From a virus, in the IMG/VR virus record IMGVR_UViG_3300030099_008341, positions 1 to 57,403 of that record: a DNA stretch of 57,403 nucleotides; one strand, given 5' to 3'. This document shows positions 181 to 56,409 of this stretch, piece by piece. Position 1 is the stretch's first letter, and every line of letters starts with the position of its first letter. Both the position numbers and the translations under genes were made by a program. The notes beneath the pieces were generated by a model. The model saw nothing but the letters and a program-made list of their open reading frames with translations. It was not told the DNA's origin and made no database searches.

Positions 181-192
181 ATACCATATTTA
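181..192 (-). promoter_or_regulatory. late-type promoter (TAAATA + 6 nt + ATG)
   Basis: TAAATA (187-192) reads on the minus strand and is followed by six bases and the start codon of the partial gene at 180. It resembles the T4 late -10 element TATAAATA. Confidence 0.5.
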
Positions 193-374
193 TTCTTTCC
201 CTTTAGAAAGGAAACGGAAAAGGAATGGGAAATGGAAAAGGAATAGGAACCCTATATAGAAGGAACTTCAGAGCGCGCTAAAAATTTTTTATAGCCATGG
301 CTCAAACCGGGTTTTGGAACCCGCTCTCTATATAACCAATCTCGAACGCTACCGTCTCTAGAGCGCGGGTTGCT
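193..374. other. non-coding stretch with purine-rich tract and hairpins
   Basis: I see no gene here. The stretch holds a purine-only run of GGAAA/GGAAT words (about 205-250) and an AAGGAACT box facing the plus strand near 262. It also has a perfect 6-bp hairpin with a 4-base loop (308-313 with 318-323), and the first arm of a 7-bp hairpin (358-364 with 372-378) that overlaps the stop codon of the next gene. No T-run follows either hairpin, so they are not classical terminators. The purpose is unknown. Confidence 0.4.
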
Positions 375-563
375 CTAGGAGCCGCGGTCATCTAGAGAAG
401 TGTTCTTCTCTCGCTGCTCCTTCTCTTCTGCTTCGGTGACCATAGCTAGTAGTCCGCTACTAGTATATACTCTATGTACGGCTCTAGCTTTATCTATATC
501 GAAAGGTCCGACATCAGCTACATGCTCTAGTTTATCGACGCTATATACTTCTACGTAATACAT
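375..563 (-). CDS. small paralogous protein, VGPF/VGPV family (62 aa)
   Basis: This 62-residue protein starts MYYVEVYSVDKL. The longer open frame (to 704) overlaps the upstream gene, whereas this ATG lies one base after that gene's TAA stop and directly after a TATAAT. It is clearly similar to the protein at 4252-4443. Both have a Y-x-VE-(V/I)-(Y/F)S opening, a central VGP(F/V), then (A/V)VH and SG(L/M)LA(M/T)(V/I)TE. The pattern suggests a small alpha/beta domain of unknown function. The C-terminus is charged (EAEEKEQREK). Confidence 0.7.
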   Translation of the reverse strand: MYYVEVYSVDKLEHVADVGPFDIDKARAVHRVYTSSGLLAMVTEAEEKEQREKNTSLDDRGS

Positions 564-564
564 A

Positions 565-759: not shown

Positions 760-784
760 CTCTTTTATTATATTAGAGTTCCTT
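760..784 (-). promoter_or_regulatory. early-type promoter (AAGGAACT / TATAAT)
   Basis: AAGGAACT, then CTAA, TATAAT and seven bases precede the ATG at 759. The AAGGAACT box overlaps the stop codon of the upstream gene. Confidence 0.6.
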
Positions 785-939: not shown

Positions 940-964
940 CTCCTCTATTATATTAGAGTTCCTA
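940..964 (-). promoter_or_regulatory. early-type promoter (AAGGAACT / TATAAT)
   Basis: AGGAACT (957-963), CTAA and TATAAT lie just before the ATG at 939, with seven bases between TATAAT and ATG. Confidence 0.6.
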
Positions 965-1297: not shown

Positions 1298-1321
1298 ACT
1301 CTTATTATAGGCTAGTTCCTT
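1298..1321 (-). promoter_or_regulatory. early-type promoter (AAGGAACT / TATAAT)
   Basis: AAGGAACT, AGCC, TATAAT and eight bases lead into the ATG at 1297. Confidence 0.6.
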
Positions 1322-2525: not shown

Positions 2526-2537
2526 AATACTATTTAA
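2526..2537 (-). promoter_or_regulatory. late-type promoter (TAAATA + 5 nt + ATG)
   Basis: TAAATA (2531-2536) and GTATT precede the ATG at 2525. Confidence 0.45.
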
Positions 2538-3104: not shown

Positions 3105-3127
3105 ACTATTATTATATTAGAGTTCCT
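3105..3127 (-). promoter_or_regulatory. early-type promoter (AAGGAACT / TATAAT), best copy
   Basis: AGGAACT, CTAA, TATAAT, AATAGT, ATG. With a standard -10 placement the start codon's A at 3104 would be the first transcribed base. Confidence 0.65.
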
Positions 3128-3326: not shown

Positions 3327-3350
3327 ACTATTATTATATCTAAGTTCCTT
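3327..3350 (-). promoter_or_regulatory. early-type promoter (AAGGAACT / TATAAT)
   Basis: AAGGAACT, TAGA, TATAAT and AATAGT precede the ATG at 3326. Confidence 0.6.
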
Positions 3351-4228: not shown

Positions 4229-4252
4229 ATCTTTATTATATCAGAGTTCCTT
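4229..4252 (-). promoter_or_regulatory. early-type promoter (AAGGAACT / TATAAT)
   Basis: AAGGAACT, CTGA, TATAAT and seven bases precede the ATG at 4228. The stop codon of the upstream gene abuts the AAGGAACT box. Confidence 0.6.
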
Positions 4253-4443: not shown

Positions 4444-4468
4444 ATCTTTATTATAGCTTAGTTCCTTA
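4444..4468 (-). promoter_or_regulatory. early-type promoter (AAGGAACT / TATAAT)
   Basis: AAGGAACT, AAGC, TATAAT and seven bases precede the ATG at 4443. Confidence 0.6.
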
Positions 4469-5662: not shown

Positions 5663-5686
5663 AATGCTTATTATAATAGAGTTCCT
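5663..5686 (-). promoter_or_regulatory. early-type promoter (AGGAACT / TATAAT)
   Basis: AGGAACT, CTAT, TATAAT and eight bases precede the ATG at 5662. The TAG stop of the upstream gene overlaps the AGGAACT box. Confidence 0.6.
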
Positions 5687-6301: not shown

Positions 6302-6332
6302 TTGTCAGATACTATTATATGCTAGTTCCTTT
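6302..6332 (-). promoter_or_regulatory. early-type promoter (AAGGAACT / TATAAT)
   Basis: AAAGGAACT, AGCA, TATAAT reads on the minus strand and lies within the last codons of the upstream membrane-protein gene. Confidence 0.5.
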
Positions 6333-7162: not shown

Positions 7163-7173
7163 ACAATTATTTA
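7163..7173 (-). promoter_or_regulatory. late-type promoter (TAAATA + 5 nt + ATG)
   Basis: TAAATA (7168-7173) and ATTGT precede the ATG at 7162. Confidence 0.5.
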
Positions 7174-7536: not shown

Positions 7537-7547
7537 ACTATTATTTA
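7537..7547 (-). promoter_or_regulatory. late-type promoter (TAAATA + 5 nt + ATG)
   Basis: ATAAATA and ATAGT precede the ATG at 7536. Confidence 0.55.
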
Positions 7548-7760: not shown

Positions 7761-9182
7761 TTAAGTTATAATTTCTGTAATAGCATCTGCACCTTCAACT
7801 CCTACTAGCTTTTCATCTAATCCATTATGAAAATAACTTAATACATTAGGATCTAAACCTAATTGAGTTAAGATAGTAGCATGAAGATTTTTAACTAAAA
7901 GAGGCTTCTCTACAGCTGCGCTTCCTAATTCATCAGTACTTCCAACACTAGCTCCTCCCTTTATTCCTCCTCCTGCCATCCACATAGTAAAGCCCATTGA
8001 GTTATGATCTCTTCCTGTACCCTTAGCATATTCTGCTGTAGGTTGTCTTCCAAACTCCCCTCCCCAAACTACGATAGTTTCTTCTAATAACCCTCTTTGC
8101 TTTAAATCTTTGAGTAATCCTGCAATAGGTTTATCAGTTCTACCAGCATGATAATCATGATTCTTTTTTAAGTCTCCATGAGCATCCCAGTTAGAATCAT
8201 TATGAGCTCCTCCCGAATAAACTTGAATAAATCTAACTCCTCTTTCAACTAGTCTTCGTGATAGAATCAACTTACGAGCAAACTCTTCAGTTCTATCATC
8301 GTTAAGTCCATACAAGTCTTTTATATGTTCTGGTTCTTTATCGACATCAATAGCCTCAGGAGCTTCTGTCTGCATTTTAAATGCTAATTCATAGCTGCTT
8401 ATCCTTGAAGATAGATCTGTATTATCTTTTCTATCAGCTAAGTGAATACCGTTTAAATGATTAAGTGAGTTAATAATAGTCCTTTGCTGCCCTCTAGATA
8501 TACCGTAAGGATTTTTTAAATTTAGAATGGGGTCTCCTTCTGATCTAAATACAGTACCAGCATAACTAGCTGGCATATAACCTGAAGTCCAGTTCTTAGC
8601 ACCTGAAATAGGTCCTCCAGACTTATCAAGCATTACCACATAACCTGGTAGACCTTCATTAAATGAACCTAAGCCATAATTAACCCATGAACCAAGAGAA
8701 GGTTTACCGCTTATTAATGATCCGCTATTCATCATAAGCATAGCTGATCCGTGAATAGGAGAGTCAGCTTCCATTGAATGAATAAAAGCTATATCATCTG
8801 CCATTGAACCTACTTCAGGAAAGAGATCAGATATCATCTTTCCGCTTTGCCCGTACGGTTTAAAGCCCCATTTAGGCCCAACTACCCTACCTTGATTTTT
8901 CTTTCCTCCTCTTCCAAACGTTTTAACATCAATAGTCTTATCATTTAACTCATACAGTTTAGGTTTATAATCAAATGTATCAACGTGACTAGGTCCGCCA
9001 TACATAAAAAGAAAGATAACAGACTTAGCTTTGCCTGGAATCATTTTCGATTTAGGGGCAAGAGGATTACTATATCCATCTTGTGCTAACATTCCCGCTA
9101 AAGCTAAACTAGGAAAAGCTCCTCCAACTGTATGAAGAAACTCTCTTCTAGTTTGACCGCAGAAGGTATTCTTTGGATTCAT
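7761..9182 (-). CDS. DUF1501 family protein, exported (473 aa)
   Basis: The protein belongs to DUF1501, an alkaline-phosphatase/sulfatase-superfamily relative that is abundant in Planctomycetota and Verrucomicrobiota and very unusual in a phage. The sequence shows a twin-arginine-like signal (TRREFL at 11-16 with a hydrophobic stretch after it), the GGPSHVDTF motif near residues 62-70, AHNDSNWDAHGD, VVWGGEFGRQP and GRDHNSMGF in the usual order. Length is normal for the family, with no frameshift. Its start overlaps the stop of the thermonuclease gene by four bases, so the two are one operon. The enzymatic role is not established for the family. The base composition is like that of neighbouring phage genes, so acquisition was not very recent. 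Confidence 0.9.
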   Translation of the reverse strand: MNPKNTFCGQTRREFLHTVGGAFPSLALAGMLAQDGYSNPLAPKSKMIPGKAKSVIFLFMYGGPSHVDTFDYKPKLYELNDKTIDVKTFGRGGKKNQGRVVGPKWGFKPYGQSGKMISDLFPEVGSMADDIAFIHSMEADSPIHGSAMLMMNSGSLISGKPSLGSWVNYGLGSFNEGLPGYVVMLDKSGGPISGAKNWTSGYMPASYAGTVFRSEGDPILNLKNPYGISRGQQRTIINSLNHLNGIHLADRKDNTDLSSRISSYELAFKMQTEAPEAIDVDKEPEHIKDLYGLNDDRTEEFARKLILSRRLVERGVRFIQVYSGGAHNDSNWDAHGDLKKNHDYHAGRTDKPIAGLLKDLKQRGLLEETIVVWGGEFGRQPTAEYAKGTGRDHNSMGFTMWMAGGGIKGGASVGSTDELGSAAVEKPLLVKNLHATILTQLGLDPNVLSYFHNGLDEKLVGVEGADAITEIIT

Positions 9183-9535: not shown

Positions 9536-9546
9536 AATTATATTTA
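9536..9546 (-). promoter_or_regulatory. late-type promoter (TAAATA + 5 nt + ATG)
   Basis: TAAATA (9541-9546) and TAATT precede the ATG at 9535. Confidence 0.5.
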
Positions 9547-9912: not shown

Positions 9913-9941
9913 CTTTATTACTTATTGTAGTTTAGTTCGTT
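9913..9941 (-). promoter_or_regulatory. early-type promoter, degenerate
   Basis: CGAACT, AAAC, TACAAT reads on the minus strand ahead of the ATG at 9912. It overlaps the stop of the sigma-factor gene. Confidence 0.4.
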
Positions 9942-11088
9942 ATGATTTAGTATTGAACATTTCAAGTTTTTGTAATCTTAAAGGATTAGTAAGCTTACGA
10001 ATAGCTTTAGCTTCTATCTGTCTAATTCTTTCTCTCGTTACTTCAAATCTATCTCCTACTTCCTCTAGAGTTCTCCTTACACCGTCTAACATTCCAAATC
10101 GCATCTCCATAACACCCATTTCACGATCATTGAGAGACGATACAGCATCAGCAATTTTCTCTCTCATACCATCAAGAGCTTCAATATCAACTCCTTGATA
10201 TTCTTTTTCATCTTCAATAAAGTCAGCAATAGTTGTATTACCATCACCAACTGGCGTTTGCAATGAAATAGGATGCATTGCAACTTTAAGTATAGTCTTA
10301 ACACGACTTACAGGTAAATCGATTTCTTCAGCAATTTCTTCTGGACTAGGCTCACACCCCCCAGCTTGAACTAACTGTCTTTGAATCCTAAATACTTTAT
10401 TAATAGTATCAATCATATGCATAGGTACGCGAATAGTTCTCCCCGTTTCACCTACACATTTAGTAATCGCTTGACGTATCCACCACGTAGCATAAGTAGA
10501 AAACTTATAACCACGTTTATATTCGAATTTTTCAACAGCTTTAATTAATCCAAGATTACCTTCTTGAATAAGATCTAGCAAAGCTACACCTCTATTCGTA
10601 TATTTCTTTGCATTAGCAACTACTAATCTTAGGTTAGCTTTAACCATTTCATCTTTTGCAATTCGTAATTCGCGAAGAGTTTTAATCATTAGAGGCATTC
10701 CTTCTTTAGCAATATCTTCACACCAGCTATCGATAATTGATTGCTTCAAGTAAAATCGCTTATATAAAGTTTTAAGCTTCGAAATAGAATTTCCCTTCTT
10801 CGTTAGCGTAGCAACTAGCTTAGGAAGCCCTTTCATAAACTTTTCCTTAGAATCACTATCAATAGTATCTTCGAATCTTTGTTTACCTTCAATTAGATCG
10901 CAACCCAATCGATTAAAGAGCATTAAAGTATTATCTACTTTACAAAGAATATTAAACGCTTTTTTCTGAGATTTTTCAATTCTTTTAAATATCTCTACTT
11001 CTTGCTCTTTAGTTAAAAGCTCCGTCTGACCCATTTGCTTCATATAGGCGCGTATCGGATCATCTACGCGTTCATTTATTTTAGGCAT
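9940..11088 (-). CDS. RpoD-type (primary-like) RNA polymerase sigma factor (382 aa)
   Basis: This is a sigma-70 factor of the primary or RpoD-like group, which binds host RNA polymerase and selects promoters. I start it at 11088 (MPKINERVDD) because an early-type promoter ends directly before it. Region 1.2 is at about 8-38 (DPIRAYMKQMG), region 2 at 146-222, including the melting and -10 segment FSTYATWWIRQAIT, region 3 at about 245-295, and region 4 at 315-375 with the -35 helix VTRERIRQIEAKA. The residues that read TATAAT in RpoD appear conserved. A short unconserved spacer lies at 60-140; the acidic region 1.1 of large RpoD proteins is missing. It could redirect host polymerase to the TATAAT-type phage promoters, including its own. 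Confidence 0.92.
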   Translation of the reverse strand: MPKINERVDDPIRAYMKQMGQTELLTKEQEVEIFKRIEKSQKKAFNILCKVDNTLMLFNRLGCDLIEGKQRFEDTIDSDSKEKFMKGLPKLVATLTKKGNSISKLKTLYKRFYLKQSIIDSWCEDIAKEGMPLMIKTLRELRIAKDEMVKANLRLVVANAKKYTNRGVALLDLIQEGNLGLIKAVEKFEYKRGYKFSTYATWWIRQAITKCVGETGRTIRVPMHMIDTINKVFRIQRQLVQAGGCEPSPEEIAEEIDLPVSRVKTILKVAMHPISLQTPVGDGNTTIADFIEDEKEYQGVDIEALDGMREKIADAVSSLNDREMGVMEMRFGMLDGVRRTLEEVGDRFEVTRERIRQIEAKAIRKLTNPLRLQKLEMFNTKS

Positions 11089-11113
11089 TATCTTATTATA
11101 TCTGAGTTCCTTT
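11089..11113 (-). promoter_or_regulatory. early-type promoter of the sigma-factor gene
   Basis: AAGGAACT, CAGA, TATAAT and seven bases precede the ATG at 11088. The longer open frame translates this element as KELRYNK. Confidence 0.6.
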
Positions 11114-11168: not shown

Positions 11169-11190
11169 AGTTCCTTATGCATAAGGAACT
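11169..11190. repeat. perfect 22-bp palindrome of two AAGGAACT boxes
   Basis: AGTTCCTTATG (11169-11179) is followed at once by its exact reverse complement CATAAGGAACT (11180-11190). It consists of two head-to-head copies of the early-promoter box, between tRNA-Leu and the sigma-factor gene. No U-run follows on the minus strand, so it is more likely a protein-binding site than a terminator. Confidence 0.6.
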
Positions 11191-11351: not shown

Positions 11352-11383
11352 TTTCATAATCATATTATATCTGAGTTCCTTTA
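11352..11383 (-). promoter_or_regulatory. early-type promoter of the tRNA-Met/tRNA-Leu unit
   Basis: AAGGAACT, CAGA and TATAAT (11364-11369) precede the tRNA by 12 bases. Because no protein start follows, this copy shows that the element drives transcription. Confidence 0.6.
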
Positions 11384-11503: not shown

Positions 11504-11516
11504 TATAAATAAACAT
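11504..11516 (+). promoter_or_regulatory. late promoter, perfect TATAAATA
   Basis: TATAAATA (11504-11511) is identical to the T4 late promoter core and is followed by AACAT and the ATG at 11517. Confidence 0.65.
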
Positions 11517-12455: not shown

Positions 12456-12480
12456 ACTATTATTATAGCAGAGTTCCTTA
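12456..12480 (-). promoter_or_regulatory. early-type promoter (AAGGAACT / TATAAT)
   Basis: AAGGAACT, CTGC, TATAAT and AATAGT precede the ATG at 12455. Confidence 0.6.
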
Positions 12481-14394: not shown

Positions 14395-14421
14395 TTCCTT
14401 CTTATTATATGCTAGTTCCTT
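14395..14421 (-). promoter_or_regulatory. early-type promoter (AAGGAACT / TATAAT)
   Basis: AAGGAACT, AGCA, TATAAT and nine bases precede the ATG at 14394. It is back to back with a late promoter for the plus-strand gene at 14446. Confidence 0.6.
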
Positions 14422-14433: not shown

Positions 14434-14445
14434 ATAAATAATTAT
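14434..14445 (+). promoter_or_regulatory. late-type promoter (ATAAATA + 5 nt + GTG)
   Basis: TAAATA (14435-14440) and ATTAT precede the GTG at 14446; the ATG two bases earlier is in another frame. The spacing selects GTG as the start. Confidence 0.55.
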
Positions 14446-14928: not shown

Positions 14929-15897
14929 CTAAGATCGATATTTTTCAACGTAATATTTTACAGTTGATGATAAACTAAATTTCTTTTGCTTTTTTATAGC
15001 ATCCAATTTATGTTTAGTAGCTAGCTGATATTTGAAGTCGTGTCCTTTTCTATCAGGTACAAATTCAATATATTCATCTTTCTTTCTTTTATAGTTTGGA
15101 AATTGATGCTCTACTTCTTTAATAATTTTATTAATTAGCTCTAAATTATTGCATACTAAATTGCCTGGTAAGTTATGTACTTGACAGCTATCAGTATGTA
15201 AAACTTCTAGAATAGATTTAGCATGATCTTCAGCGTTAATCCATTCGCGTATATTTTCTCCTGTACCGTAAACTGGTATTTTATTTCCTTTAATAATAGA
15301 TCTAATTACTGTAGGAATTAATTTTTCATCATCTTGCCGCGGTCCGTAATTATTACAACATCTAGTAATTGAAGCATTAATATTAAACGTTTCAATATAA
15401 GACTGTACTAATAAATCTGAACCGGCCTTAGTTGCTGAGTATGGTGATCTTGGAGCAAGAGAACTCTCTTCTGTAAATGGAGGGTCGTCCTTTCCTAAAT
15501 GACCATACACTTCATCAGTTGATACATGAACCATTCTAGATCTATGTTTTCTTACTAACTCTAATATATTAGCTGTACCTTTTAAATTTGAATCAACAAA
15601 CGATAAAGGGTTATCAATAGAACGATCAACATGCGACTCAGCAGCTAAATGAATAACATAATTGATATCTTCAGATATAAAATCTAAAGGATGCGACATA
15701 TGTAGCCTCCAAGCATCATCATTAGCAATATCCATAAAATGATTTTCGACGCGATCATCTTCTACAATATTTTCTTTAGATGAGCCGATACCCATCTTAT
15801 CGATATTGTATATAAAAATATCTTCTTTTTTGAGAAGCTCTTTGATTACATATGATCCAATAAAACCACAACCTCCAGTTACAACATATGTATTCAT
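14929..15897 (-). CDS. rmlB: dTDP-glucose 4,6-dehydratase-like SDR protein (322 aa)
   Basis: This is an extended short-chain dehydrogenase that would act on a nucleotide sugar. The NAD-binding motif GGCGFIG is at 8-14, the catalytic Thr segment HVSTDEVYG and the YSATK motif (around residue 150) follow, and SIDNPLSF and NCCNNYGPRQ-like segments (RCCNNYGPRQ) are typical of RmlB. Length is slightly shorter than RmlB enzymes. It is the last gene of a four-gene operon with a nucleotidyltransferase-like, an RmlD-like and a GMP reductase gene. The exact sugar is not known; other 4,6-dehydratases or epimerases remain possible. Confidence 0.82.
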   Translation of the reverse strand: MNTYVVTGGCGFIGSYVIKELLKKEDIFIYNIDKMGIGSSKENIVEDDRVENHFMDIANDDAWRLHMSHPLDFISEDINYVIHLAAESHVDRSIDNPLSFVDSNLKGTANILELVRKHRSRMVHVSTDEVYGHLGKDDPPFTEESSLAPRSPYSATKAGSDLLVQSYIETFNINASITRCCNNYGPRQDDEKLIPTVIRSIIKGNKIPVYGTGENIREWINAEDHAKSILEVLHTDSCQVHNLPGNLVCNNLELINKIIKEVEHQFPNYKRKKDEYIEFVPDRKGHDFKYQLATKHKLDAIKKQKKFSLSSTVKYYVEKYRS

Positions 15898-32581: not shown

Positions 32582-32606
32582 TTACATGTTTAATTAAATT
32601 GCCGAT

Positions 32607-33323: not shown

Positions 33324-33348
33324 ATGTTAATGCACAATAATTAATAGT

Positions 33349-39766: not shown

Positions 39767-39770
39767 TAAA

Positions 39771-41087
39771 ATGGCTATTTGTAATAAAAGTGTTGAAACA
39801 TTAAGAGCTTTAGAACTTACTAAAGATCAATTTACATCTATAATAGAAACAGATTGTAAAGATCAAGATAGAGGTCCAATTCTCGGCTATACGTTTTCAG
39901 AAAAAGATAAAGAGCTTTGCGAATCATTTAAAAAGGTATATCAGCTAGGCTTTAATCAGTTACGTATTTTTGTTGACGATCTTATAAAAGGTAATCCTGA
40001 AATAGATGAACAAGCAGCATTATATTATATAAGATTACTATATAATGGACCATTTACAAATCAAGTAGCAGTATACGCACAAAATCCATATAGAGGATTA
40101 GGAAGAGAACAAAATTGCTTTTTTCCTTCGCCTGATATTATGGCTTGTTTAGCTAATACCGTACAGCAAAATGCTGGGGTATCTGCATATTATGGTTCAT
40201 CTAGTGACATATCAACAAATTTAACTAAAAAGACACCAGCGTTTATAAGAAGAAATCTTAATACTTGTCAAAGAACATGTTCAGATGTGTTTAATTATAA
40301 TTCAGAAAGCGCTATATATAGTGATAACACTTTACCGTATATTGATAAACGTACAGTAGAGCGAGTTAATAGTGAATATCTAGGTGAATATGCATCATCT
40401 ACAATTGCTGTTGGTAATCTAATGCTTAAAGATATAAAGTTTAGTAACGTGCTCCGTGGTATTGCCGACTCAATAATACAGTTAGTAGAAAGTTATCTTG
40501 GTCCTGATGCATTTAGATTGTTTAATTATAAAAGAGATATAAACTTTTTTGATCCAGAACAAAATATTTCAAAAACAGAAAATGGTAAAGTCTGTAAGTC
40601 ATTTCTAATATTAAAGAAAGCATTTGATGAGCAAGGAAATGAATATATTGATGAAGAGTGTGTTGAAGTATGCTGTAGTTGTTGTTGTGGTCCTTCCGTG
40701 CCTGATTTTGGTTTAACTATATCTACTGCATCAGGGTCTTTCGATTTATATACTGTAGCTGGTCAAGGAGGTAGTGGAAATAATCCAAAAGAAAATAAAA
40801 ATATTGGTGGTACACAATTGACGCCACCAGAAACAGCAATTGATCGACTTGGTACTTTCCCTGGAGTTTTAAATGTAACTACTTTTACAAATCCACAGAG
40901 CGCCTCTAATAAAACATTAGAAATAACTAATGGTGCTTTATCAGGGTCACATTCTCATCCAACAAGTACTGGTGGTACTGTATGGATGCCTTTCCCTACA
41001 ATGGAAGAGTTTGAAGATTATCTAGCGCAACTTAAAGAAAGAGATATATGCGCTGATGAAGAAGGATGTAATTCTCTTAATTTTTAA
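39771..41087 (+). CDS. Cys-cluster structural protein (438 aa)
   Basis: The protein starts MAICNKSVETLRALELTKD. Near residue 303 it has a remarkable cluster, CVEVCCSCCCGP, with six Cys within eight residues. The C-terminal part carries SGSHSHPTSTGGTVWMPFP, similar to the collar/H-x-H metal-binding tips of fibres. Because it follows the hub gene it may be a tail-tip spike or baseplate component. Iron or zinc binding by the Cys and His clusters is possible but unproven. No family is recognised. Confidence 0.55.
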   Translation: MAICNKSVETLRALELTKDQFTSIIETDCKDQDRGPILGYTFSEKDKELCESFKKVYQLGFNQLRIFVDDLIKGNPEIDEQAALYYIRLLYNGPFTNQVAVYAQNPYRGLGREQNCFFPSPDIMACLANTVQQNAGVSAYYGSSSDISTNLTKKTPAFIRRNLNTCQRTCSDVFNYNSESAIYSDNTLPYIDKRTVERVNSEYLGEYASSTIAVGNLMLKDIKFSNVLRGIADSIIQLVESYLGPDAFRLFNYKRDINFFDPEQNISKTENGKVCKSFLILKKAFDEQGNEYIDEECVEVCCSCCCGPSVPDFGLTISTASGSFDLYTVAGQGGSGNNPKENKNIGGTQLTPPETAIDRLGTFPGVLNVTTFTNPQSASNKTLEITNGALSGSHSHPTSTGGTVWMPFPTMEEFEDYLAQLKERDICADEEGCNSLNF

Positions 41088-41530
41088 ACATCAATAACAT
41101 CATCATCTTTTTCAACTAAAGCTTTCATTATATCGTCACGTGATAATAACATTTTAGTTTGATTATCAGCCATAGTTATTCTTTCTTTAGATTCAACATC
41201 CATACGCTTTACTTCTTTTTGAGTATCGTTTCTTTCATTTGAACTATGGAGCTTTTGTAAAGTATCTATTGAACCGGCAGTTGCTTTAATAACTTCAGCT
41301 AAAGCAGCTACATCTCTATTTTCCGGAGCTGATGAAATATAATCATTGACGTTATCGACAATCTCGAGAGATTTAGTAACTAATTTTCCTGAAGATTTTA
41401 AGATAAATTCTTCTAAGTTATCTCTATCAATAGAGATTTCTTCATTTTGAAATGATTGTACAGTTTTCTTATTGCCCTTTATTTGAGCAATAATATCGTT
41501 AACTGCTTCATCTAGCTCGTCTTCAGCCAT
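41084..41530 (-). CDS. putative small terminase, gp16-like (148 aa)
   Basis: The protein is helical and acidic. The segment APENRDVAALAEVIKATAGS followed by IDTLQKLHSSNER resembles the central helices of T4-like gp16, where a similar (A-x-R...E...L-K-L-H) pattern occurs. It would recognise DNA for packaging with the large terminase. A late-type TAAATA is found eight bases before its ATG. It converges on and overlaps the stop of the Cys-cluster gene by four bases. The call depends on the motif only. Confidence 0.5.
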   Translation of the reverse strand: MAEDELDEAVNDIIAQIKGNKKTVQSFQNEEISIDRDNLEEFILKSSGKLVTKSLEIVDNVNDYISSAPENRDVAALAEVIKATAGSIDTLQKLHSSNERNDTQKEVKRMDVESKERITMADNQTKMLLSRDDIMKALVEKDDDVIDV

Positions 41531-41544
41531 TACACATATATTTA
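41531..41544 (-). promoter_or_regulatory. late-type promoter (TAAATA + 8 nt + ATG)
   Basis: TAAATA (41539-41544) precedes the ATG at 41530 with a longer gap than usual. Confidence 0.4.
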
Positions 41545-41587
41545 ATCTACTCTTGAATTTTCTACAACATATATTATCATTAGGTAT

Positions 41588-42010
41588 ATGATATTGAAAT
41601 TTAAGAAGCTTACTGATAATGCAGTTTTACCTTCTAAAAACCATAAGGATGATACTGGATTAGATGTAACGTGTGTAGAAGATAAAGTTATTCCTGCTAA
41701 GGGATCTGCTGTAATTGATGTAGGTTTAAAGTTTGCTTATATTGAACCTGGTTTTTGGGTAAGAATAGAAGGTAGATCAGGTTTAGGATTTAAGCATGGC
41801 ATTTTACCTCACCCTGGTATTATTGATAGTGGATATAGAGGTAGTGCTGGAATTAAGCTTTATAACTTAACTAATACTGATTATGAAATTAAAGCTGGTG
41901 ATAGAATTGCACAGTTTGTAGTTTATAATAATCATGAAGTTAAAGTTATTGAAGGTGAAATTGAAAATTCTCTTCGTGGTGAAAAAGGCTTTGGTTCATC
42001 TGGTAAATAA
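41588..42010 (+). CDS. dut: dUTPase (140 aa)
   Basis: Trimeric dUTP pyrophosphatase converts dUTP to dUMP, keeping uracil out of DNA and feeding dTMP synthesis. All five motifs are visible: DTGLDVT (1), EGRSGLGFKHG (2), PGIIDSGYRG (3), AGDRIAQFV (4) and RGEKGFGSSGK (5). Motif 1 has T in place of the usual A before G-x-D. Length is normal. Its stop is two bases from the clamp loader start. Confidence 0.95.
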   Translation: MILKFKKLTDNAVLPSKNHKDDTGLDVTCVEDKVIPAKGSAVIDVGLKFAYIEPGFWVRIEGRSGLGFKHGILPHPGIIDSGYRGSAGIKLYNLTNTDYEIKAGDRIAQFVVYNNHEVKVIEGEIENSLRGEKGFGSSGK

Positions 42011-42012
42011 TT

Positions 42013-42933
42013 ATGATTGATTTTGATAAAATTTGGGTTGAAAAGTATCGACCGAAGACGCTAAATGATGTTATCTTAGATGAAGAGACATTAAGAGTAG
42101 TTAAAGAGTATAAGAATGAAATTCCTAATCTTCTTTTTGTTGGTAATCCTGGTACTGGCAAAACCACCCTTGCTAGAGTTATTGTTAACGATATACTCGG
42201 ATGTAATTATCTTTATATTAATGCTTCTGATGAGTCTGGTATCGATACTATTCGACATAATATCACTAATTTTGCTCAAACTAAATCTTTTGACGGTGGC
42301 ATTAAAGTAGTAATTTTAGATGAAGGTGATGGATTAACTGCTCAAGCGCAAGCTGCGTTGCGTAATACTATGGAAACATTTGCTAAGTATTGCAGATTTA
42401 TTATTACTGCTAACTATAAGCATAAAATTATTCCTGCCTTGCAGTCTAGATGTCAGTCACTAACTATTAAGCCGGTTGTTGAACTAGCAGTTAAAAGATG
42501 TTATCTTATTCTTAAAAATGAAAACGTTAATGTACCTGAAGAACAAAAGAAAAAATTTGTACAACTCGTCAAGCGTCACTTCCCCGATCTTCGGAAAACG
42601 ATCAACGAACTCCAGAAAAACGTTATTGATTCAGAGCTGTGTATTACTAGCATTGTTAGTGATAGCGAGTTGCTCGAAACAATCTACAGAAAAATAAGTT
42701 CTAAAAAATGCCTTGAGGCGAGGAGATACTTGATAGAAAATGAAGATAGGTTTCAAGGTGATTATGATACTTTACTAAGTAACTACTTAAACTTTATCTA
42801 CTCTGCAAATATTGACGATATTAAAAAGAAAGAGATGATTGCTATTATCGCAGATCATCTCTATAAAAGTGCGTTTGTTGTAGATAAAGAAATTAACGCC
42901 TTTGCGTGTCTAGTAAATCTAGAAAAAGTTTAA
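42013..42933 (+). CDS. sliding clamp loader large subunit, gp44-like (306 aa)
   Basis: This AAA+ protein loads the sliding clamp on primed DNA. It begins WVEKYRPKTLNDVI, then has Walker A GNPGTGKT (44-51), Walker B VVILDEGD (99-106), a sensor 1 segment FIITANY and the arginine-finger SRC motif (145-147), followed by the C-terminal collar. The pattern is that of gp44 and RFC small subunits. No gp62 partner or clamp gene is seen in the window. A TAAATA lies three bases from the start. Confidence 0.92.
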   Translation: MIDFDKIWVEKYRPKTLNDVILDEETLRVVKEYKNEIPNLLFVGNPGTGKTTLARVIVNDILGCNYLYINASDESGIDTIRHNITNFAQTKSFDGGIKVVILDEGDGLTAQAQAALRNTMETFAKYCRFIITANYKHKIIPALQSRCQSLTIKPVVELAVKRCYLILKNENVNVPEEQKKKFVQLVKRHFPDLRKTINELQKNVIDSELCITSIVSDSELLETIYRKISSKKCLEARRYLIENEDRFQGDYDTLLSNYLNFIYSANIDDIKKKEMIAIIADHLYKSAFVVDKEINAFACLVNLEKV

Positions 42934-43526
42934 GCTTTTTTAAGATCAGACAAATACTGATTTGTGTATGATGTTACAGCAGGAGATGGCGTTGCTGGGT
43001 CACTTGGAATATCAGTATTTTGCTTAGGTAAAGATCTTTCGGTTGGAGAAAGATCGTGAGGCTCGAGCCCGCCTCTATCAGTCCTATTTGCTCGCATCTC
43101 TTCGTCTTCTACATACTCTTCAGGCTTGATAGTTACAGTACTCTTTCTCTTAAGAGCGTCTGGTATAGGCAAAAGATTAGGCGCGTATTGTATAGCATGG
43201 CCCATCGTACCAGGTACAGTTACGTAGTGTGAATATCTTCCACCGCCCTCATCGAGAGCAAGATTTAAATTTACATGTAGGGAAGATTGTTGCGAGCTGG
43301 CCGGGAAGCGCGTCGGAGCAGTATCTTTTATTCCTGTAACTCTAATATGCAGACCTGAGTCTATCATTTTAGTAATAAGATCTTTTGTAGCTTTACCTAA
43401 TGCTTTATAACATTCCATTGATTGGTAATCATCATTAAACTTAAAAACGTCACCTACGAGAAAGCCTCCACGCTCATACCTTCTCATATACGATTCATGT
43501 AAACTTACAAACTTTTTTTCGGCCAT
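42930..43526 (-). CDS. hypothetical late protein (198 aa)
   Basis: I start at 43526 (MAEKKFVSLHESYMRRYE) since a late promoter lies five bases upstream. The N-terminal half has FLVGDVFKFND, a KALGKATKDLITKMIDSG helix and a HVNLNLALDEGGG strand; the C-terminal 60 residues are Pro/Ser-rich and probably disordered. It ends inside the stop of the clamp loader gene. No family is recognised. Confidence 0.65.
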   Translation of the reverse strand: MAEKKFVSLHESYMRRYERGGFLVGDVFKFNDDYQSMECYKALGKATKDLITKMIDSGLHIRVTGIKDTAPTRFPASSQQSSLHVNLNLALDEGGGRYSHYVTVPGTMGHAIQYAPNLLPIPDALKRKSTVTIKPEEYVEDEEMRANRTDRGGLEPHDLSPTERSLPKQNTDIPSDPATPSPAVTSYTNQYLSDLKKA

Positions 43527-43537
43527 AATATTATTTA
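43527..43537 (-). promoter_or_regulatory. late-type promoter (ATAAATA + 5 nt + ATG)
   Basis: TAAATA (43532-43537) and ATATT precede the ATG at 43526. Confidence 0.55.
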
Positions 43538-43564
43538 TGCCAGCTTGCAAAGAATCATACAGTT

Positions 43565-43849
43565 TTAGCTATCTTTAAGAAAGAAACGTAAAGTATGATA
43601 AGCTTGGAAGATTTCAATATCTTCTTCATCTACTGGTCCTAAACTTTCTTTAAGTTGAAACGAATGAGAAGTATTAACATCTTTTTCTATAATCCAACGA
43701 CTGTTTCCGTCATCGTGTAGTTCAGCCGTAACCTTGCCTTCATTAGGATGAGGAAGCTTTAGCTTTTTATGAACTTCTACTTCAAGAGTATTAAGAATAT
43801 CTTTAAAAGAAACATCAACCTTTACATCAGCTTTACCAATTAACTCCAT
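43565..43849 (-). CDS. hypothetical protein (94 aa)
   Basis: The product begins MELIGKADVKVDVSFKDIL and alternates beta-strand-like and helical segments (EVEVHKKLKLPHPNEGKV, then IEIFQAYHTLRFFLKD). It is preceded by an early-type promoter, the only clear one inside the late structural region. No family is recognised. Confidence 0.65.
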   Translation of the reverse strand: MELIGKADVKVDVSFKDILNTLEVEVHKKLKLPHPNEGKVTAELHDDGNSRWIIEKDVNTSHSFQLKESLGPVDEEDIEIFQAYHTLRFFLKDS

Positions 43850-43872
43850 ACGTAATTATATTATAGTTCCTT
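43850..43872 (-). promoter_or_regulatory. early-type promoter (AAGGAACT / TATAAT)
   Basis: AAGGAACT, ATAA, TATAAT and TACGT precede the ATG at 43849. It is divergent from the late promoter at 43891. Confidence 0.6.
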
Positions 43873-43890
43873 AATCCTGATATGCTACAT

Positions 43891-43902
43891 TAAATATTGT
43901 AA
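43891..43902 (+). promoter_or_regulatory. late-type promoter (TAAATA + 6 nt + ATG)
   Basis: TAAATA (43891-43896) and TTGTAA precede the ATG at 43903. Confidence 0.55.
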
Positions 43903-44391
43903 ATGGCTCTTATTAAGATAACAGATGTTTCAGTAGATAAAGGCAGCGAAGCAGCCTTAAAGGAGGGATATCTATTTAAAGATCTTTTTTTAGATCTAAC
44001 ACCTGAAGTATACTACAACAAACAACTTAATAAAAATGTTATTTTAAAAGATGTACAGGGTTCATATGATTTAGATGCTATTAAAAATAGTATTATAAAC
44101 ATCTTTTTAACTTCACCGGGCCAGAAAATTTTAAATCCAGAATTTGGATTAGATTTAAGAAGATACTTATTTGAACCGGTTAATACCTCAACAGCATATA
44201 AGATTAAATATGATATTGAAGTATTATTACCTGGGCAAGAGCCACGAATTCAATTAGAAAATGTTACCGTGGATGCTATTACTGATGCACAAGAATATTA
44301 TATTGCTATGCAAATAAATATTCCATCACTAAATGCGTTCGGGATAACTCTTAAATCATTATTAAATAGTAACGGATATTACGTCTTATAA
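43903..44391 (+). CDS. baseplate wedge protein, gp25-like (162 aa)
   Basis: The GPW/gp25 family pattern is clear: DLDAIKNSIINIFLTSPGQK, then LNPEFGLDLRRYLFEP and a C-terminal EPRIQLENVTVDA. The EPR segment is the conserved lysozyme-like wedge core motif. It joins gp6 and gp53 in the baseplate wedge core bundle and is found in nearly all contractile tails. An N-terminal extension of about 45 residues precedes the domain. The gp6-like gene follows with a 2-base gap. Confidence 0.9.
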   Translation: MALIKITDVSVDKGSEAALKEGYLFKDLFLDLTPEVYYNKQLNKNVILKDVQGSYDLDAIKNSIINIFLTSPGQKILNPEFGLDLRRYLFEPVNTSTAYKIKYDIEVLLPGQEPRIQLENVTVDAITDAQEYYIAMQINIPSLNAFGITLKSLLNSNGYYVL

Positions 44392-44393
44392 CC

Positions 44394-46238
44394 ATGCCAA
44401 CTAATACAAACGAAACCTCAAACAAGTTTTTAGATTTTAATCTACCGCAAGACGCATATGTAGCGTTTGATGCTGTAAGTTTAAAAGATTACATTATCAA
44501 TCGATTAGATGAAAATGAAAAATTTACAGATCAAAACTTTGAAGGTAGTAATTTAGCAGCAGTAATTGATATAATTGCTTATTCATATCATGTTCTTTTA
44601 TTCTATTTAAATAATTCAGCAGCTGAAGTAAATTTTGATCAAGCAACTTTATATGAAAATATGAATAAGATTGTAAAGTTGATAGGCTATAAACCTGCTG
44701 GAAAGCAAACTTCAATTGTTCCTATAAATGCTGTAGCGACTGCTTCATTACCTATTGGTAATTATACTATCCGTAAATATTCATACTTTCTAGCTGATGG
44801 CGTACAGTATAATTTTATTAATGATATATCTTTTAATAAAGCTACTAATAATCAAGAAACATTACAAACAGTAAATGATGAAACAATTTTATATCAAGGT
44901 ACAATTAAAGAATACCCTGATTATACAGCGCAAGGTGAAAGCTTTGAAACTCTTCCTATTGTAGTTGATAACATAGTAGATAGTAATGATGATAAATTTA
45001 TTGCTGATGGTACTATAAGTGTATATGTAAAAGAGTTAAGCAACAATACATACTATGAATATGAAATTGTTGAAAGCTTATATCTTTCAAAATCTGTTGA
45101 AAGAGTATGTGAGTTAAGATTAAATGAACATGGCCATTATGAAGTAAAATTTGGTAATGGTGTGTTTGGTAAAAAATTAGATAGTGGGGATATTGTGTCT
45201 ATTGATTACATACTTTCGGATAATACTGCAGGTGTAATTAGTAAAAATGTTATAAATGGTAATAAGCTTTTTGTTTACGATTCGACAAGACAGCGAGAGC
45301 TATTTCAAGATTTATATCCTAATAAAGATGAAACAACCTTTTTAAATATCTCTAATAGTCCAAAAATTACCTTTAATAATCCTTTAAATTCTTCTGCTCT
45401 CTCAACAGAAGAAACTGTTGAGCAAATTAGACAAAATGCTCCAAAAATGTTTTCTTCTCAATTAAGACTAGTAACAGAAAAAGATTTTCAGTCATTCTTA
45501 GAGAGAAACTTAGCTAATGTAATTACCAGCGCAAGAGTTTCAAGCAATGATAGCTACGTTAATGAATATATACAATATTTTTATGATATATGTGTTGATC
45601 CTAATAAAGTAAATAGAGTTATTATTAATCAAGTTAATTTTGCTGACTCATGTGATTTTAATAACATTAATGTTTTTGTTGTACCTCGATTTAAAGTAAC
45701 ACAAGATAAATTTTATCCACCATTTTTGAGTAACTCATTTAAAAATTATATAGTTACTCAAACTCAAGATAGAAAAATGCTATCTAATACTGTCGTACCT
45801 CGAGATCCTATATACATGGCATTTGGTTTAGGTATAGGAGATTCAGCAAATCTAACTCTAGATATTTTAGATCAAACAAAATTATACGCTGTTAGAGAGA
45901 CGAATAATAAAATTAATAAAACAACTTTAAAAGCAAGAATCGGTAGTTTAATTGAAAAGTTTTTTGATCCTGAAGATAATATTTTAGGTGGTAATTTACA
46001 ATTAACAAATCTTGCTAATGATATTCTTTCTTTAGAAGGAATAAAAAGAATAGAGACCAGAAATGAATTTACTGGTGAAATATTTACTGGAGGTATATCA
46101 TTTTTATCATTTAACCCACAATATCCGGAAAGTGACATAGAGTTAGTGAATCAAGATAAAACGTTGCCGTTTTTTAAATTTCCATATCTATATTCACCAT
46201 TATCTGTGACTGACCGTATTGTTATAACAGATGAGTAA
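44394..46238 (+). CDS. baseplate wedge protein, gp6/Baseplate_J-like (614 aa)
   Basis: The segments GSNLAAVIDIIAYSYHVLLF, LYENMNKIVKLIGYKPAGKQ, VKFGNGVFGKKLDSGDIV and LRLVTEKDFQSFLERN are typical of gp6 and Baseplate_J wedge proteins. The protein forms the iris-like ring that triggers sheath contraction. Length is close to T4 gp6 (660). Its order after gp25 is standard. No Shine-Dalgarno site is seen before its ATG. Confidence 0.88.
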   Translation: MPTNTNETSNKFLDFNLPQDAYVAFDAVSLKDYIINRLDENEKFTDQNFEGSNLAAVIDIIAYSYHVLLFYLNNSAAEVNFDQATLYENMNKIVKLIGYKPAGKQTSIVPINAVATASLPIGNYTIRKYSYFLADGVQYNFINDISFNKATNNQETLQTVNDETILYQGTIKEYPDYTAQGESFETLPIVVDNIVDSNDDKFIADGTISVYVKELSNNTYYEYEIVESLYLSKSVERVCELRLNEHGHYEVKFGNGVFGKKLDSGDIVSIDYILSDNTAGVISKNVINGNKLFVYDSTRQRELFQDLYPNKDETTFLNISNSPKITFNNPLNSSALSTEETVEQIRQNAPKMFSSQLRLVTEKDFQSFLERNLANVITSARVSSNDSYVNEYIQYFYDICVDPNKVNRVIINQVNFADSCDFNNINVFVVPRFKVTQDKFYPPFLSNSFKNYIVTQTQDRKMLSNTVVPRDPIYMAFGLGIGDSANLTLDILDQTKLYAVRETNNKINKTTLKARIGSLIEKFFDPEDNILGGNLQLTNLANDILSLEGIKRIETRNEFTGEIFTGGISFLSFNPQYPESDIELVNQDKTLPFFKFPYLYSPLSVTDRIVITDE

Positions 46239-48483: not shown

Positions 48484-48495
48484 TAAATATGTTTA
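48484..48495 (+). promoter_or_regulatory. late-type promoter (TAAATA + 6 nt + ATG)
   Basis: TAAATA (48484-48489) and TGTTTA precede the ATG at 48496. Confidence 0.55.
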
Positions 48496-52037: not shown

Positions 52038-52049
52038 TAAATATTGTTA
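52038..52049 (+). promoter_or_regulatory. late-type promoter (TAAATA + 6 nt + ATG)
   Basis: TAAATA (52038-52043) and TTGTTA precede the ATG at 52050; an in-frame TTG two codons earlier lies inside the spacer. Confidence 0.55.
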
Positions 52050-54428: not shown

Positions 54429-56395
54429 TTGAATATTTTAAATATGCTGCTGCTGGCAGTTTTACTTTAAGTAGCGCGCCGTATACAGGTTTTGTTAACG
54501 TAAGAGATGGTGTAGCTTATACCGGTAAGACATTTACCACAGCTTCACAAGTTTTGCAATCTACTGATACTTTTTTTGCGAATAGCATTTTACATAAGTT
54601 AGAGTTTGATAGAACAACAACACCAATTGCGGAGTCTAATATACTGATAAGACCTACTATATCTCCAAGAAGTGTAATTGATCAATCGTTTATTGATACA
54701 AATTTAGGTATTTTAAATCAAAATAATCTTAATCTATATGCATTAAATATAACATCGCGAAATGATTTGCTTAACTTCAAAAACTCTGCAAAAAATGGAA
54801 ACGCATACTTCTTAGGGTTATCGAGTGGAAAAAATGATATACGTAATGATGATACAAAGCTAGCTAAGGATAATCAATTTCCTATTCAAATTGATCCATT
54901 TAGTTTTATCGATAAAGTACAAGGTGTTAATGTATTAGACGACACTATCGATAGTACTTTATTTGTTTATAATGATGAGACATATTTTTATTTTACGACA
55001 ACGCCAACGACTTCACACACTTTCTCGGGTAGCTTTGTTAAAAATAGTAACTTAGTACCTATTACACCTGACGAGGATACTGGTGAAACCTTGTTCAAAG
55101 GTGGTACTAGATTTACGTATGATAATTCAGCAGATATATTATACAGTTTATCAGCTGGCTCAGTAGAAGTAGAGCTTAACTTATACGACAATAGTTTTAT
55201 TAACCCTTGCGGAAAGTTAAAGCTTGTAGATAAAATAACTCTACGTGAAGATGTAATCGATAAAACAGTTAAAATAGGAAACAATTTATTGGGTTATAGA
55301 TACCGTGAAATAAATGAAGAGGAAGGAATTGATACAATAGCTATTTCTGTTAGAAACAAATACTCGAATAAATTAATTGCAACGATTATAGCTGAAGAAG
55401 ATGAGGATATAGTTTCTTTCGATATAAGAGACACAGATGATTCTATTTTAGTTTTAACTGAACCGGGGCAGGTATCACCGGAAATTAGTGAAAAGGATAC
55501 TAGCGGGGAAGGTGTATTTTACCTATATCAATTAGATGCTGAAAAAATAACTAATCTAAGTTCGAGTTTAAATCCAAAATATGTATTTAGGCATAGACCG
55601 ACATATGAATTTACCGCAGTTGAAGAAGATGATATTGAAATATTTTTCTCACAAAATGATTCAAATGTTTTTATAATAAACGATAGAGGCTTTATAACAA
55701 CAAGATTTATATCAAACCCTGAAGAAGTTTCTGGTTTTGCAGATCCAGAGAATTTACAATATCTACCTGATATGTACTTTAATAGTACTGGAGAACGTTT
55801 TAATTTAATTGAAAAAAAGTTTAATTCTAATATACTTAGATCAAACTACTTTAACTATATAAACTATATAGTAACTAAAAATGAAACTGATCTATTTTTC
55901 CTTTTACATAATATCGGTCGTATATATTTGTTTAAAGAAAGTAATCTGTTGTATCAAAACTTCGTACCATTAGATCTTAAAAATTTATATGAAAAAATTA
56001 CGAGCTGTGAATCGAGCTTAGGAAGCACATTAAATAGCGAAATACAAAATATTATTAAAGATACAATAAACATCTTTTTAAGTCTTAGTCTCATACCAGC
56101 AGCAACAGAATCAGCCGGTATACCTATACTAAGAGATTATATAACTTACAAAGGATTAGATATTAATTTTAGAGATATTGAATTTCATGAAAATGAAGCA
56201 GTGGATTATAATGTTGTTTCACGAGTTATTAACCAACTTTTTGAATTACAGCAACAAGTTTTAAATAGTATAATAGATAAATCAGAACTATTAGAAGGTC
56301 CAGAAGAAGACTTTTTTGGTGACATAGTTATTGGTGAGGTAGAATTTGATGAAATAAACCCGGGTAGTACTGATAGTGGTACTCCTAATTACTAA
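54425..56395 (+). CDS. large virion protein (656 aa)
   Basis: The product begins MIEYFKYAAAGSFTLSSAPY and is beta-rich and acidic, with Ser/Asp-rich strands and two long helical stretches near the C-terminus (about 520-610). It overlaps the upstream stop by four bases. A role in the baseplate or fibres follows from position; no family is recognised. Confidence 0.5.
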   Translation: MIEYFKYAAAGSFTLSSAPYTGFVNVRDGVAYTGKTFTTASQVLQSTDTFFANSILHKLEFDRTTTPIAESNILIRPTISPRSVIDQSFIDTNLGILNQNNLNLYALNITSRNDLLNFKNSAKNGNAYFLGLSSGKNDIRNDDTKLAKDNQFPIQIDPFSFIDKVQGVNVLDDTIDSTLFVYNDETYFYFTTTPTTSHTFSGSFVKNSNLVPITPDEDTGETLFKGGTRFTYDNSADILYSLSAGSVEVELNLYDNSFINPCGKLKLVDKITLREDVIDKTVKIGNNLLGYRYREINEEEGIDTIAISVRNKYSNKLIATIIAEEDEDIVSFDIRDTDDSILVLTEPGQVSPEISEKDTSGEGVFYLYQLDAEKITNLSSSLNPKYVFRHRPTYEFTAVEEDDIEIFFSQNDSNVFIINDRGFITTRFISNPEEVSGFADPENLQYLPDMYFNSTGERFNLIEKKFNSNILRSNYFNYINYIVTKNETDLFFLLHNIGRIYLFKESNLLYQNFVPLDLKNLYEKITSCESSLGSTLNSEIQNIIKDTINIFLSLSLIPAATESAGIPILRDYITYKGLDINFRDIEFHENEAVDYNVVSRVINQLFELQQQVLNSIIDKSELLEGPEEDFFGDIVIGEVEFDEINPGSTDSGTPNY

Positions 56396-56397
56396 AA

Positions 56398-56409
56398 TAA
56401 ATATACATA
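56398..56409 (+). promoter_or_regulatory. late-type promoter (TAAATA + 6 nt + ATG)
   Basis: TAAATA (56398-56403) and TACATA precede the ATG at 56410. Confidence 0.55.

Follow-up and report, generated by a model that had tools for sequence, protein, structure and literature searches.

The 57,403-base IMG/VR virus record IMGVR_UViG_3300030099_008341, analyzed here over its whole length (the window), derives from an uncultured T4-like myovirus in which TAAATA, the core motif of T4 late promoters, repeatedly stands 5 or 6 nucleotides (nt) before start codons. A second box, the -10-type TATAAT, is placed likewise before early and replication genes. Judging from these sequence patterns, it is highly probable that a T4-type late programme and an earlier programme both make leaderless or near-leaderless mRNAs from promoters fused to start codons. 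Window genes for terminase, sheath, tube, baseplate, and clamp loader match families of the T4 type, and T4-type replication genes further mark the virus as a T4-like myovirus. Megablast of a 20-kb portion (window positions 26000-46000) against 50,697 phage records gave no match, and the top-ranked named large terminase subunit (TerL), that of Sinorhizobium phage phiM9, is about 39% identical to the window TerL. Scanning IMG/VR for TerL yielded 122 relatives, and the 80 best (77–100% identical, on contigs of up to 197 kb) were retained. Genes were called with our own simple script, in which starts are picked from codon usage alone and upstream sequence is ignored.

The window contains 27 TAAATA boxes located 5 nt (18 boxes) or 6 nt (9 boxes) before an ATG or GTG that opens an open reading frame (ORF) of at least 30 codons; one precedes a doubtful 30-codon ORF (11517) and one an internal in-frame start (26244). 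The first-pass annotation, which had predicted leaderless late mRNAs from this spacing, named 18 example sites (10 on the plus and 8 on the minus strand). Re-reading found TAAATA 5 or 6 nt before ATG or GTG at all of them, the minus-strand positions being those of the base immediately preceding the start codon. Perfect copies of TATAAATA do occur at 11504 and 19862, and the remaining 25/27 boxes deviate from it at the first base, the second, or both. Four GTG starts with the same spacing (14446, 25638, 26781, and 34889) were also as described. The boxes are the following:

187-192, minus strand, late box TAAATA, 6 nt before ATG 180
2531-2536, minus strand, late box, 5 nt before ATG 2525
7168-7173, minus strand, late box, 5 nt before ATG 7162
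7542-7547, minus strand, late box, 5 nt before ATG 7536
9541-9546, minus strand, late box, 5 nt before ATG 9535 of a nuclease-like gene (PF00565)
11506-11511, plus strand, late box, perfect TATAAATA from 11504, 5 nt before ATG 11517 of a doubtful 30-codon ORF
14435-14440, plus strand, late box, 5 nt before GTG 14446
18475-18480, minus strand, late box, 5 nt before ATG 18469, back to back with the box at 18486
18486-18491, plus strand, late box, 6 nt before ATG 18498 of the superoxide dismutase gene
19864-19869, plus strand, late box, perfect TATAAATA from 19862, 6 nt before ATG 19876
20431-20436, plus strand, late box, 5 nt before ATG 20442 (801 amino acids)
25644-25649, minus strand, late box, 5 nt before GTG 25638
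26250-26255, minus strand, late box inside gene 25714-26748, 5 nt before in-frame ATG 26244 (176-codon nested product)
26754-26759, minus strand, late box, 5 nt before ATG 26748, back to back with the box at 26770
26770-26775, plus strand, late box, 5 nt before GTG 26781 of the TerL gene
28515-28520, plus strand, late box, 6 nt before ATG 28527, tail tube family phrog_45
29136-29141, plus strand, late box, 5 nt before ATG 29147 of the tail sheath gene
32034-32039, plus strand, late box, 5 nt before ATG 32045, tail tube family phrog_45
32607-32612, plus strand, late box, 6 nt before ATG 32619, tail tube family phrog_45 (short match)
34141-34146, plus strand, late box, 5 nt before ATG 34152; the preceding gene terminates at the TAA of this box
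34878-34883, plus strand, late box, 5 nt before GTG 34889; the preceding gene terminates at the TAA of this box
36830-36835, plus strand, late box, 5 nt before ATG 36841; the preceding gene terminates at the TAA of this box
43532-43537, minus strand, late box, 5 nt before ATG 43526
43891-43896, plus strand, late box, 6 nt before ATG 43903 of a gp25-like baseplate wedge gene
48484-48489, plus strand, late box, 6 nt before ATG 48496 (989 amino acids)
52038-52043, plus strand, late box, 6 nt before ATG 52050 (792 amino acids)
56398-56403, plus strand, late box, 6 nt before ATG 56410 of a gene that runs off the window

TAAATA occurs at 118 sites on the two strands, and 26 of these are 5–6 nt from the ATG or GTG of ORFs of at least 60 codons. 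The runner-up distance, 9 nt, has 3 sites; TAAATA is thus not equally frequent at other distances, an outcome that would have counted against the first-pass prediction. Among 14 other arrangements of the same six letters at 5–6 nt, ATAATA (13), AAATAT (11), and ATAAAT (10) were also frequent and the remaining eleven occurred 0–2 times; the excess of the three is read as overlapping registers of the late box or of a TATAAT-type motif. The strict late box abuts 20/62 called window genes, against 0.19 per 2-nt bin at distances of 12–53 nt and a mean of 0.54 (maximum 3) in 1000 dinucleotide-preserving shuffles of the 30-nt upstream regions. The pattern of start-abutting boxes is therefore confirmed as real and far above chance.

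The same arrangement was found throughout the relatives. Genes with the box at 5–6 nt numbered 44/206, 52/182, 38/154, 26/92, and 19/62 in five relatives (contigs G001, G002, G003, G004, and G013, respectively) and 17/72, 9/74, 16/84, 20/39, 21/96, and 13/41 in six more contigs (G018, G017, G020, G026, G027, and G023). In a further 43 loci with 503 genes, the box was found 200 times at 5 nt and 40 times at 6 nt, vs 0.79 per nt at 12–53 nt. Two groups with more distant TerL, together comprising 71 loci, had 105 boxes at 5 nt and 15 at 6 nt in 319 genes (TerL 62–75% identical to that of the window) and 92 and 41 boxes, respectively, in 432 genes (50–62% identical), the share of genes with sequences resembling a Shine-Dalgarno (SD) element rising to 11% in the latter. 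In the divergent region upstream of the TerL gene, where the two starts are 32 nt apart, both boxes are kept in 63/63 relatives and the intervening bases are variable; TerL itself starts with a box-abutting GTG in 62/63. For this count 64 of the 80 loci were usable (in 16 the gene start was missing or near the edge), one of which was skipped at a contig edge. The start-abutting late box is a trait of the lineage.

Among other T4-like phages, no gene had the box at 5–6 nt in T4 (0/243), S-PM2 (0/165), Syn9 (0/168), XG4 (0/183), or phiM9 (0/230). The cultured Pelagibacter phage HTVC008M (Kyanoviridae) resembles the lineage in having such boxes on 10/178 called genes, 8/10 of them reading ATAAATA and 9/10 of the genes having no SD-like sequence, but there they are a minority and 53% of all genes have an SD-like sequence:

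HTVC008M (NC_020484), box-abutting starts at 6280, 7562, 16007 (minus strand), 18916 (minus strand), 19456, 24712, 31132, 49760, 75830, and 142360

Since a cultured phage carries the arrangement, the claim is testable now. Whole-record counts of TAAATA-N5-ATG vs a control pattern were 14 vs 4 in HTVC008M and near the control in Melnitz (5 vs 3), P-SSM2 (6 vs 6), Cr30 (0 vs 1), SRB7757 (2 vs 0), and three single-cell phage records (2, 0, and 4 vs 3, 3, and 4). Rhizobium phage RHph_I1_18 (MN988519), with 6 minus-strand matches vs 0 for the control, may be an independent case.

According to excerpts of PMC2988020, the T4 late box spans positions -13 to -6 and has no -35 element. With the box so placed, a 5-nt spacer puts +1 on the start codon, and this geometric argument, made in the first-pass annotation, holds. 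In the 5-nt class (n = 142), the base at -1 is T in 79% and C in 16%, and that at +1 is A in 85% and G in 15%, which corresponds to a pyrimidine-purine (YR) initiator; position -1 is the strongest between the box and the start codon. The sequence logo revealed no comparable element upstream of the box. The lineage matches the T4 late promoter in its TAAATA core, with the first two bases degenerate (2/27 window boxes are perfect). All 181 NTG codons located 5 nt from the box are ATG (153) or GTG (28), TTG and CTG being absent; at 6 nt, 80/83 are ATG (76) or GTG (4), with no TTG and 3 CTG.

In the proposed mechanism, a gp55-type late sigma factor would read TAAATA as the core of a T4-type late promoter, and transcription would start about 6 nt past the box. 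This would be the first base of ATG or GTG at the 5-nt spacing, and the first codon base or the one before it at 6 nt. By T4 geometry, the late mRNAs would be leaderless or have a leader of 1–2 nt, and the host ribosome would initiate on a 5'-terminal AUG or GUG without an SD sequence. TATAAT, with or without AGGAACT upstream, would be fused to the start codons of early and replication genes in the same manner, so leaderless expression would not be confined to the late phase. Touching or overlapping genes are presumably translated from longer transcripts.

The box could also be a true promoter with +1 shifted by a few bases, giving near-leaderless mRNAs with leaders of about 1–5 nt. This is possible, if rather unlikely, and for the 6-nt class it overlaps with the proposed mechanism. 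Boxes at 6 nt make up 9/27 in the window and 57/199 in the logo set, and if +1 is fixed 6 nt after the box, they would give a 1-nt leader, the base at -1 then being A in 74%; the initiator of this class fits a 1-nt leader as well as none. Spacings of 7, 8, and 9 nt exist too (16, 22, and 25 ATG or GTG), part of those at 9 nt possibly stemming from overlapping TAAATAAATA. On the other hand, the spacing is sharp, with 181 starts at 5 nt and 80 at 6 nt vs 1 at 4 nt and 16 at 7 nt, and the 5-nt class has its 95% pyrimidine followed by a purine at the very place expected of an initiator.

The boxes sort with gene class. Orthologues of 28 T4 genes (45 queries were tried, of which 14 structural and 14 replication genes gave hits; genes hit twice were counted once) had the late box at a possible start in 43/72 structural and 0/66 replication cases (p = 1.4e-16). 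The opposite was true of exact TATAAT at 5–7 nt, found in 0/72 and 24/66, respectively (p = 1.4e-9). With the raw starts of the caller, the late box preceded 33/79 structural and 0/66 replication hits, one of the latter having a box with one mismatch. TATAAT stood at a possible start of gp43 (3/5), gp61 (5/6), uvsX (5/5), gp32 (5/5), gp55 (5/5), and gp44 (1/8), and exact copies were absent from possible starts of the gp41, gp45, gp46, gp47, uvsW, nrdA, rnh, and cd orthologues.

Components of the T4 late system are encoded in the lineage. Homologues of gp55 were found in G001–G004 by phmmer from T4 gp55 (E 6e-10 to 2e-9) and in G027 with a profile that included clade members (E 4e-41), and the gp45 sliding clamp was found in the same five contigs with a profile built without clade members (E 1e-13 to 9e-8). 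A four-round jackhmmer search from Syn9 gp33 found no gp33 in 12 clade contigs, but this negative is weak, since the search recovered the T4, HTVC008M, and XG4 proteins and missed those of S-PM2 and phiM9. Seven contigs including the window carry a gene for an RpoD-like sigma factor (about 380 amino acids; best match to RpoD models, under cut-offs). Its product in the window (9940-11088, minus strand) has 382 amino acids and regions 1.2, 2, 3, and 4, and the gene lies behind an early-type cassette; the match in G030 spans a stop codon. Scanning genome contigs with short peptide patterns of the window sigma protein yielded 32 loci with 33–54% identity, mostly of Thermodesulfobacteriota.

These genes bear on the possibility that the late box is read by another sigma factor, the host sigma-70 or the RpoD-like protein of the phage, which would leave leaderlessness intact. 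The presence of the RpoD-like gene in the window and six other contigs and the failure to detect gp33 would agree with it. However, G002, G003, and G004, where box counts are as high, yielded no such sigma gene, homologues of gp55 are present in the lineage, and the boxes track structural genes, as T4 late promoters do. A reader other than gp55 is therefore improbable.

The second type of start-abutting promoter has the form AGGAACT-N4-TATAAT. Each of the 14 copies in the window is on the minus strand, most of them in the region of small genes, and 12/14 have ATG 22–24 nt from the first base, in one case (11357) opening an ORF that overlaps tRNAs:

767-783, minus strand, early cassette, ATG 759
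947-963, minus strand, early cassette, ATG 939
1304-1320, minus strand, early cassette, ATG 1297
3111-3127, minus strand, early cassette, ATG 3104
3333-3349, minus strand, early cassette, ATG 3326
4235-4251, minus strand, early cassette, ATG 4228
4450-4466, minus strand, early cassette, ATG 4443
5670-5686, minus strand, early cassette, ATG 5662
6314-6330, minus strand, early cassette, no start codon at the expected place
11095-11111, minus strand, early cassette, ATG 11088 of the RpoD-like sigma gene (9940-11088)
11364-11380, minus strand, early cassette before tRNA-Met (5' end 11351); ATG 11357 opens a 60-codon ORF overlapping two tRNAs
12462-12478, minus strand, early cassette, ATG 12455
14404-14420, minus strand, early cassette, ATG three bases beyond the usual distance
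43855-43871, minus strand, early cassette, ATG 43849

In the 12 clade contigs, 82/103 cassettes have ATG or GTG at 22–24 nt. TATAAT then occupies positions -12 to -7 relative to the start codon, the normal position of a -10 box for +1 on that codon. The +1 of the tRNA-Met cassette is predicted at 11357. TATAAT was also found 7–19 nt before the 5' end of 6/16 listed tRNAs (tRNA-Arg of the window and of G004, tRNA-Arg and tRNA-Met of G013, and two of G017), the other 10/16 having none within this distance. A scan of IMG/VR with AGGAACTNNNNTATAATA gave at least 119 stretches. The 80 loci listed contained 107 sites, of which 40 had ATG or GTG at 23 nt and 45 had neither within 18–44 nt; many single sites are probably chance matches. 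Among 12 of the 80 listed records that were tested, 5 encoded TerL 64–78% identical to that of the window.

The first contigs had suggested that the sigma gene co-occurs with many AGGAACT sites. The phage sigma as reader of AGGAACT was dropped, though not disproved, as G018, G017, G020, and G023, all fragments, have 7, 4, 5, and 6 ATG cassettes, respectively, and no detected sigma gene; the location of the window sigma gene itself behind such a cassette is a further point against it. A palindrome, AGTTCCTTATGCATAAGGAACT, consisting of two facing AGGAACT elements, lies at 11169-11190 between the tRNA cluster and the sigma gene. Early cassettes at locus L084 (G001:24917 and 25119, minus strand) and at L357:9147 (G023) are followed by a similar stretch (AATAG..-AAAG.AGTTG) with no start at the usual place, possibly a small RNA or a leadered gene.

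About one-fourth of clade genes overlap or touch the preceding gene, and the late box is almost missing there: it was found in 1/222 genes touching or overlapping a same-strand upstream neighbour. SD-like sequences are scarce in both categories, preceding 34/322 overlapping and 36/842 other genes (70/1164 in total), with 17 strong SDs in the 12 clade contigs. The corresponding counts are 51/96 and 101/147 in T4 (63% of all genes), 49/127 and 60/206 in S-PM2 and Syn9 together, and 39/76 and 56/102 in HTVC008M. Two divergent gene pairs with starts 28 and 32 nt apart carry back-to-back boxes, and these regions therefore have no room for separate promoters plus leaders.

Scarcity of SD-like sequences would also be expected if TAAATA-N5 were a translation signal, AU-rich or Kozak-like, used by an SD-poor host such as a member of Bacteroidota on transcripts starting farther upstream. 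In Bacteroidota, A at -3 and -6 aids initiation (excerpts of PMC6847099), and the 5-nt class does have A at -6. However, its base at -3 is more often T than A, touching or overlapping genes would need the same signal, and the back-to-back boxes leave no space for leaders. The reading was rejected as very improbable on the grounds of the touching or overlapping genes, the class specificity (0/66 replication orthologues), and the presence of the second box type before tRNAs.

One late box lies within the coding sequence of gene 25714-26748 (minus strand), 5 nt before the in-frame ATG 26244. An in-frame internal box was found in 46/46 relatives given (of the 80 loci), the stretch before it varying from 125 to 314 codons. 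Its codons, CTA AAT AAT TTT, are invariant in 20/20 aligned sequences, whereas 7/57 other invariant residues (Met and Trp excluded) keep a single codon throughout. As at least four of these seven lie no more than ten codons from the box, local conservation accounts for part of the codon invariance. We read the internal box as a sign of selection on DNA and of a predicted nested leaderless product. This product would begin with MSK..SVFDKLYNKV, which resembles the N-terminus of the full protein.

An artefact of AT-rich sequence (clade contigs have 31–40% GC) or of start-codon choice by the simple caller is practically negligible, given the shuffles, the lack of any ATG or GTG at this spacing in T4, S-PM2, Syn9, and XG4 (31–41% GC), and the invariant codons of the internal box.

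The leaderless late mRNAs predicted in the first-pass annotation are thus supported at the sequence level by the YR initiator, exclusive use of ATG and GTG at 5 nt, few SDs, the structural-gene bias, conservation, and the near absence of boxes from overlapping genes. Its one promoter per gene was too strong a statement: strict late boxes abut 20/62 window genes and boxes of either type 30/62 if TATAAT-like ones are counted, and start-abutting boxes of the two types serve 37–52% of genes. The early cassettes, which abut starts as well, were missed in that annotation, and the major capsid gene is an exception in retaining a structured leader.

A number of observations weigh against leaderless expression from start-fused promoters. 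The box is loose at its first two bases (8% have T at -13), unlike the strict T4 octamer, the 6-nt class has a weaker initiator compatible with +1 one base earlier, and some TAAATA sites lie 7, 8, or 9 nt from the start. No strict box was found at any start tested in 29/72 structural orthologues, including all hits of gp4, gp14, gp15, gp22, and gp23; the gp4 and gp14 orthologues overlap the preceding gene, and gp15 of G001 has TAAATA 7 nt from the called start. At least four loci of the group with 50–62% TerL identity (L446, L465, L467, and L472) have no box at 5–6 nt, and 21/103 AGGAACT-TATAAT sites have no start codon at 22–24 nt. Homologues of gp55 and gp45 were found in relatives and not in the window, which is a fragment, and the gp33 search was negative. 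The gene caller misses some GTG and other true-looking starts. Relatives are non-independent samples, as are counts within the lineage, and G020 and G023 were recruited via the AGGAACT pattern, with no TerL in the part of the contigs examined.

The major capsid gene (gp23) of G001, G002, and G003 is also at odds with start-fused promoters, having no abutting box. Upstream of it, some 65 nt are conserved and include two hairpin-like parts as well as GAGGT ahead of an ATG. Related stretches, recognized by eye, occur before gp23 in many of 73 further loci, with stems changing on both sides and a conserved GGTCGA. On the gappy leader alignment, RNAalifold predicted no more than 4 pairs, each of them with both sides changing. 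Rfam yielded nothing at or above the gathering score; of the matches listed, just one (E 1.7), at the start codon of the G001 gene, touched the leader. The order of elements, two hairpins, GGTCGA, and then a purine-rich stretch, can be followed at L091:12395-12465 (G001), L485:1395-1490, L486:1400-1490, and other loci. Since the capsid gene keeps a leader, the hosts can probably also use leadered mRNAs.

In a wider formulation, which seems fairly likely, a cassette of promoter and start codon would replace promoter plus leader in all temporal classes of a widespread aquatic T4-like lineage, and the late sigma would in effect choose translation starts. Leaders would be kept only where they carry regulatory RNA, as in the major capsid gene, and host ribosomes would be efficient on 5'-terminal AUG and GUG.

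Late transcription of T4-like phages serves as a model, and the late promoter is regarded as distinct from the signals for translation. The lineage is like T4 in the TAAATA core, the lack of a -35 element, use by structural genes, and the gp55 and gp45 homologues; it differs in that the box abuts the start codon, in the loose first two bases, and in the gp33 that the weak search did not detect. Thermus phage phiYS40, which is not known to have a T4-type late module, belongs to another phage group and has another host. Its middle and late mRNAs are described as mostly leaderless in excerpts of PMC3594737, and such phage-wide leaderless expression is similar to that proposed here. In Deinococcus-Thermus, mRNAs are leaderless where a -10 box immediately precedes the ORF (excerpts of PMC12340547), and in mycobacteria leaderless initiation works only with ATG or GTG (excerpts of PMC4633059), a rule that the 5-nt starts of the lineage match. 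Both concern cellular genes, whereas in the lineage a viral late-type box appears, from its sequence context, to act alike. Leaderless GTG is poor in Escherichia coli, with <10% activity according to the same excerpts (PMC4633059), and the TerL gene starts with a box-abutting GTG in nearly all relatives; this suggests a host with robust leaderless initiation. No description of start-abutting late promoters in T4-like phages was found in the literature surveyed, which covered few subscription papers and some sources in part. If the reading is true, the lineage shows a virus rewiring late expression for a host with leaderless translation; a prediction about the host would follow, gene starts could be annotated from the promoter, and nested products would be cheap, as a box inside a gene suffices.

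Several other features of these phages were recorded. Ribosomal protein bS21 was found in 0/7 phages, and a tmRNA gene was predicted at L357:17080-17495 in G023, a phage contig recruited by the AGGAACT pattern. Three window genes flanking the sheath gene match the tail tube family phrog_45 (28527-29114, 32045-32581, and 32619-33323, plus strand). A DUF1501 protein is encoded at 7761-9182 (minus strand), nucleotide-sugar genes at 14929-17181 (minus strand), and a protein with a weak Cas4-like nuclease match (E 1.2e-5, under the cut-off) at 19062-19787 (minus strand). The Fe/Mn superoxide dismutase (18498-19124, plus strand) and GMP reductase (17181-18233, minus strand) had no match of at least 60% among phages, and both have matches in 5/5 relatives compared.

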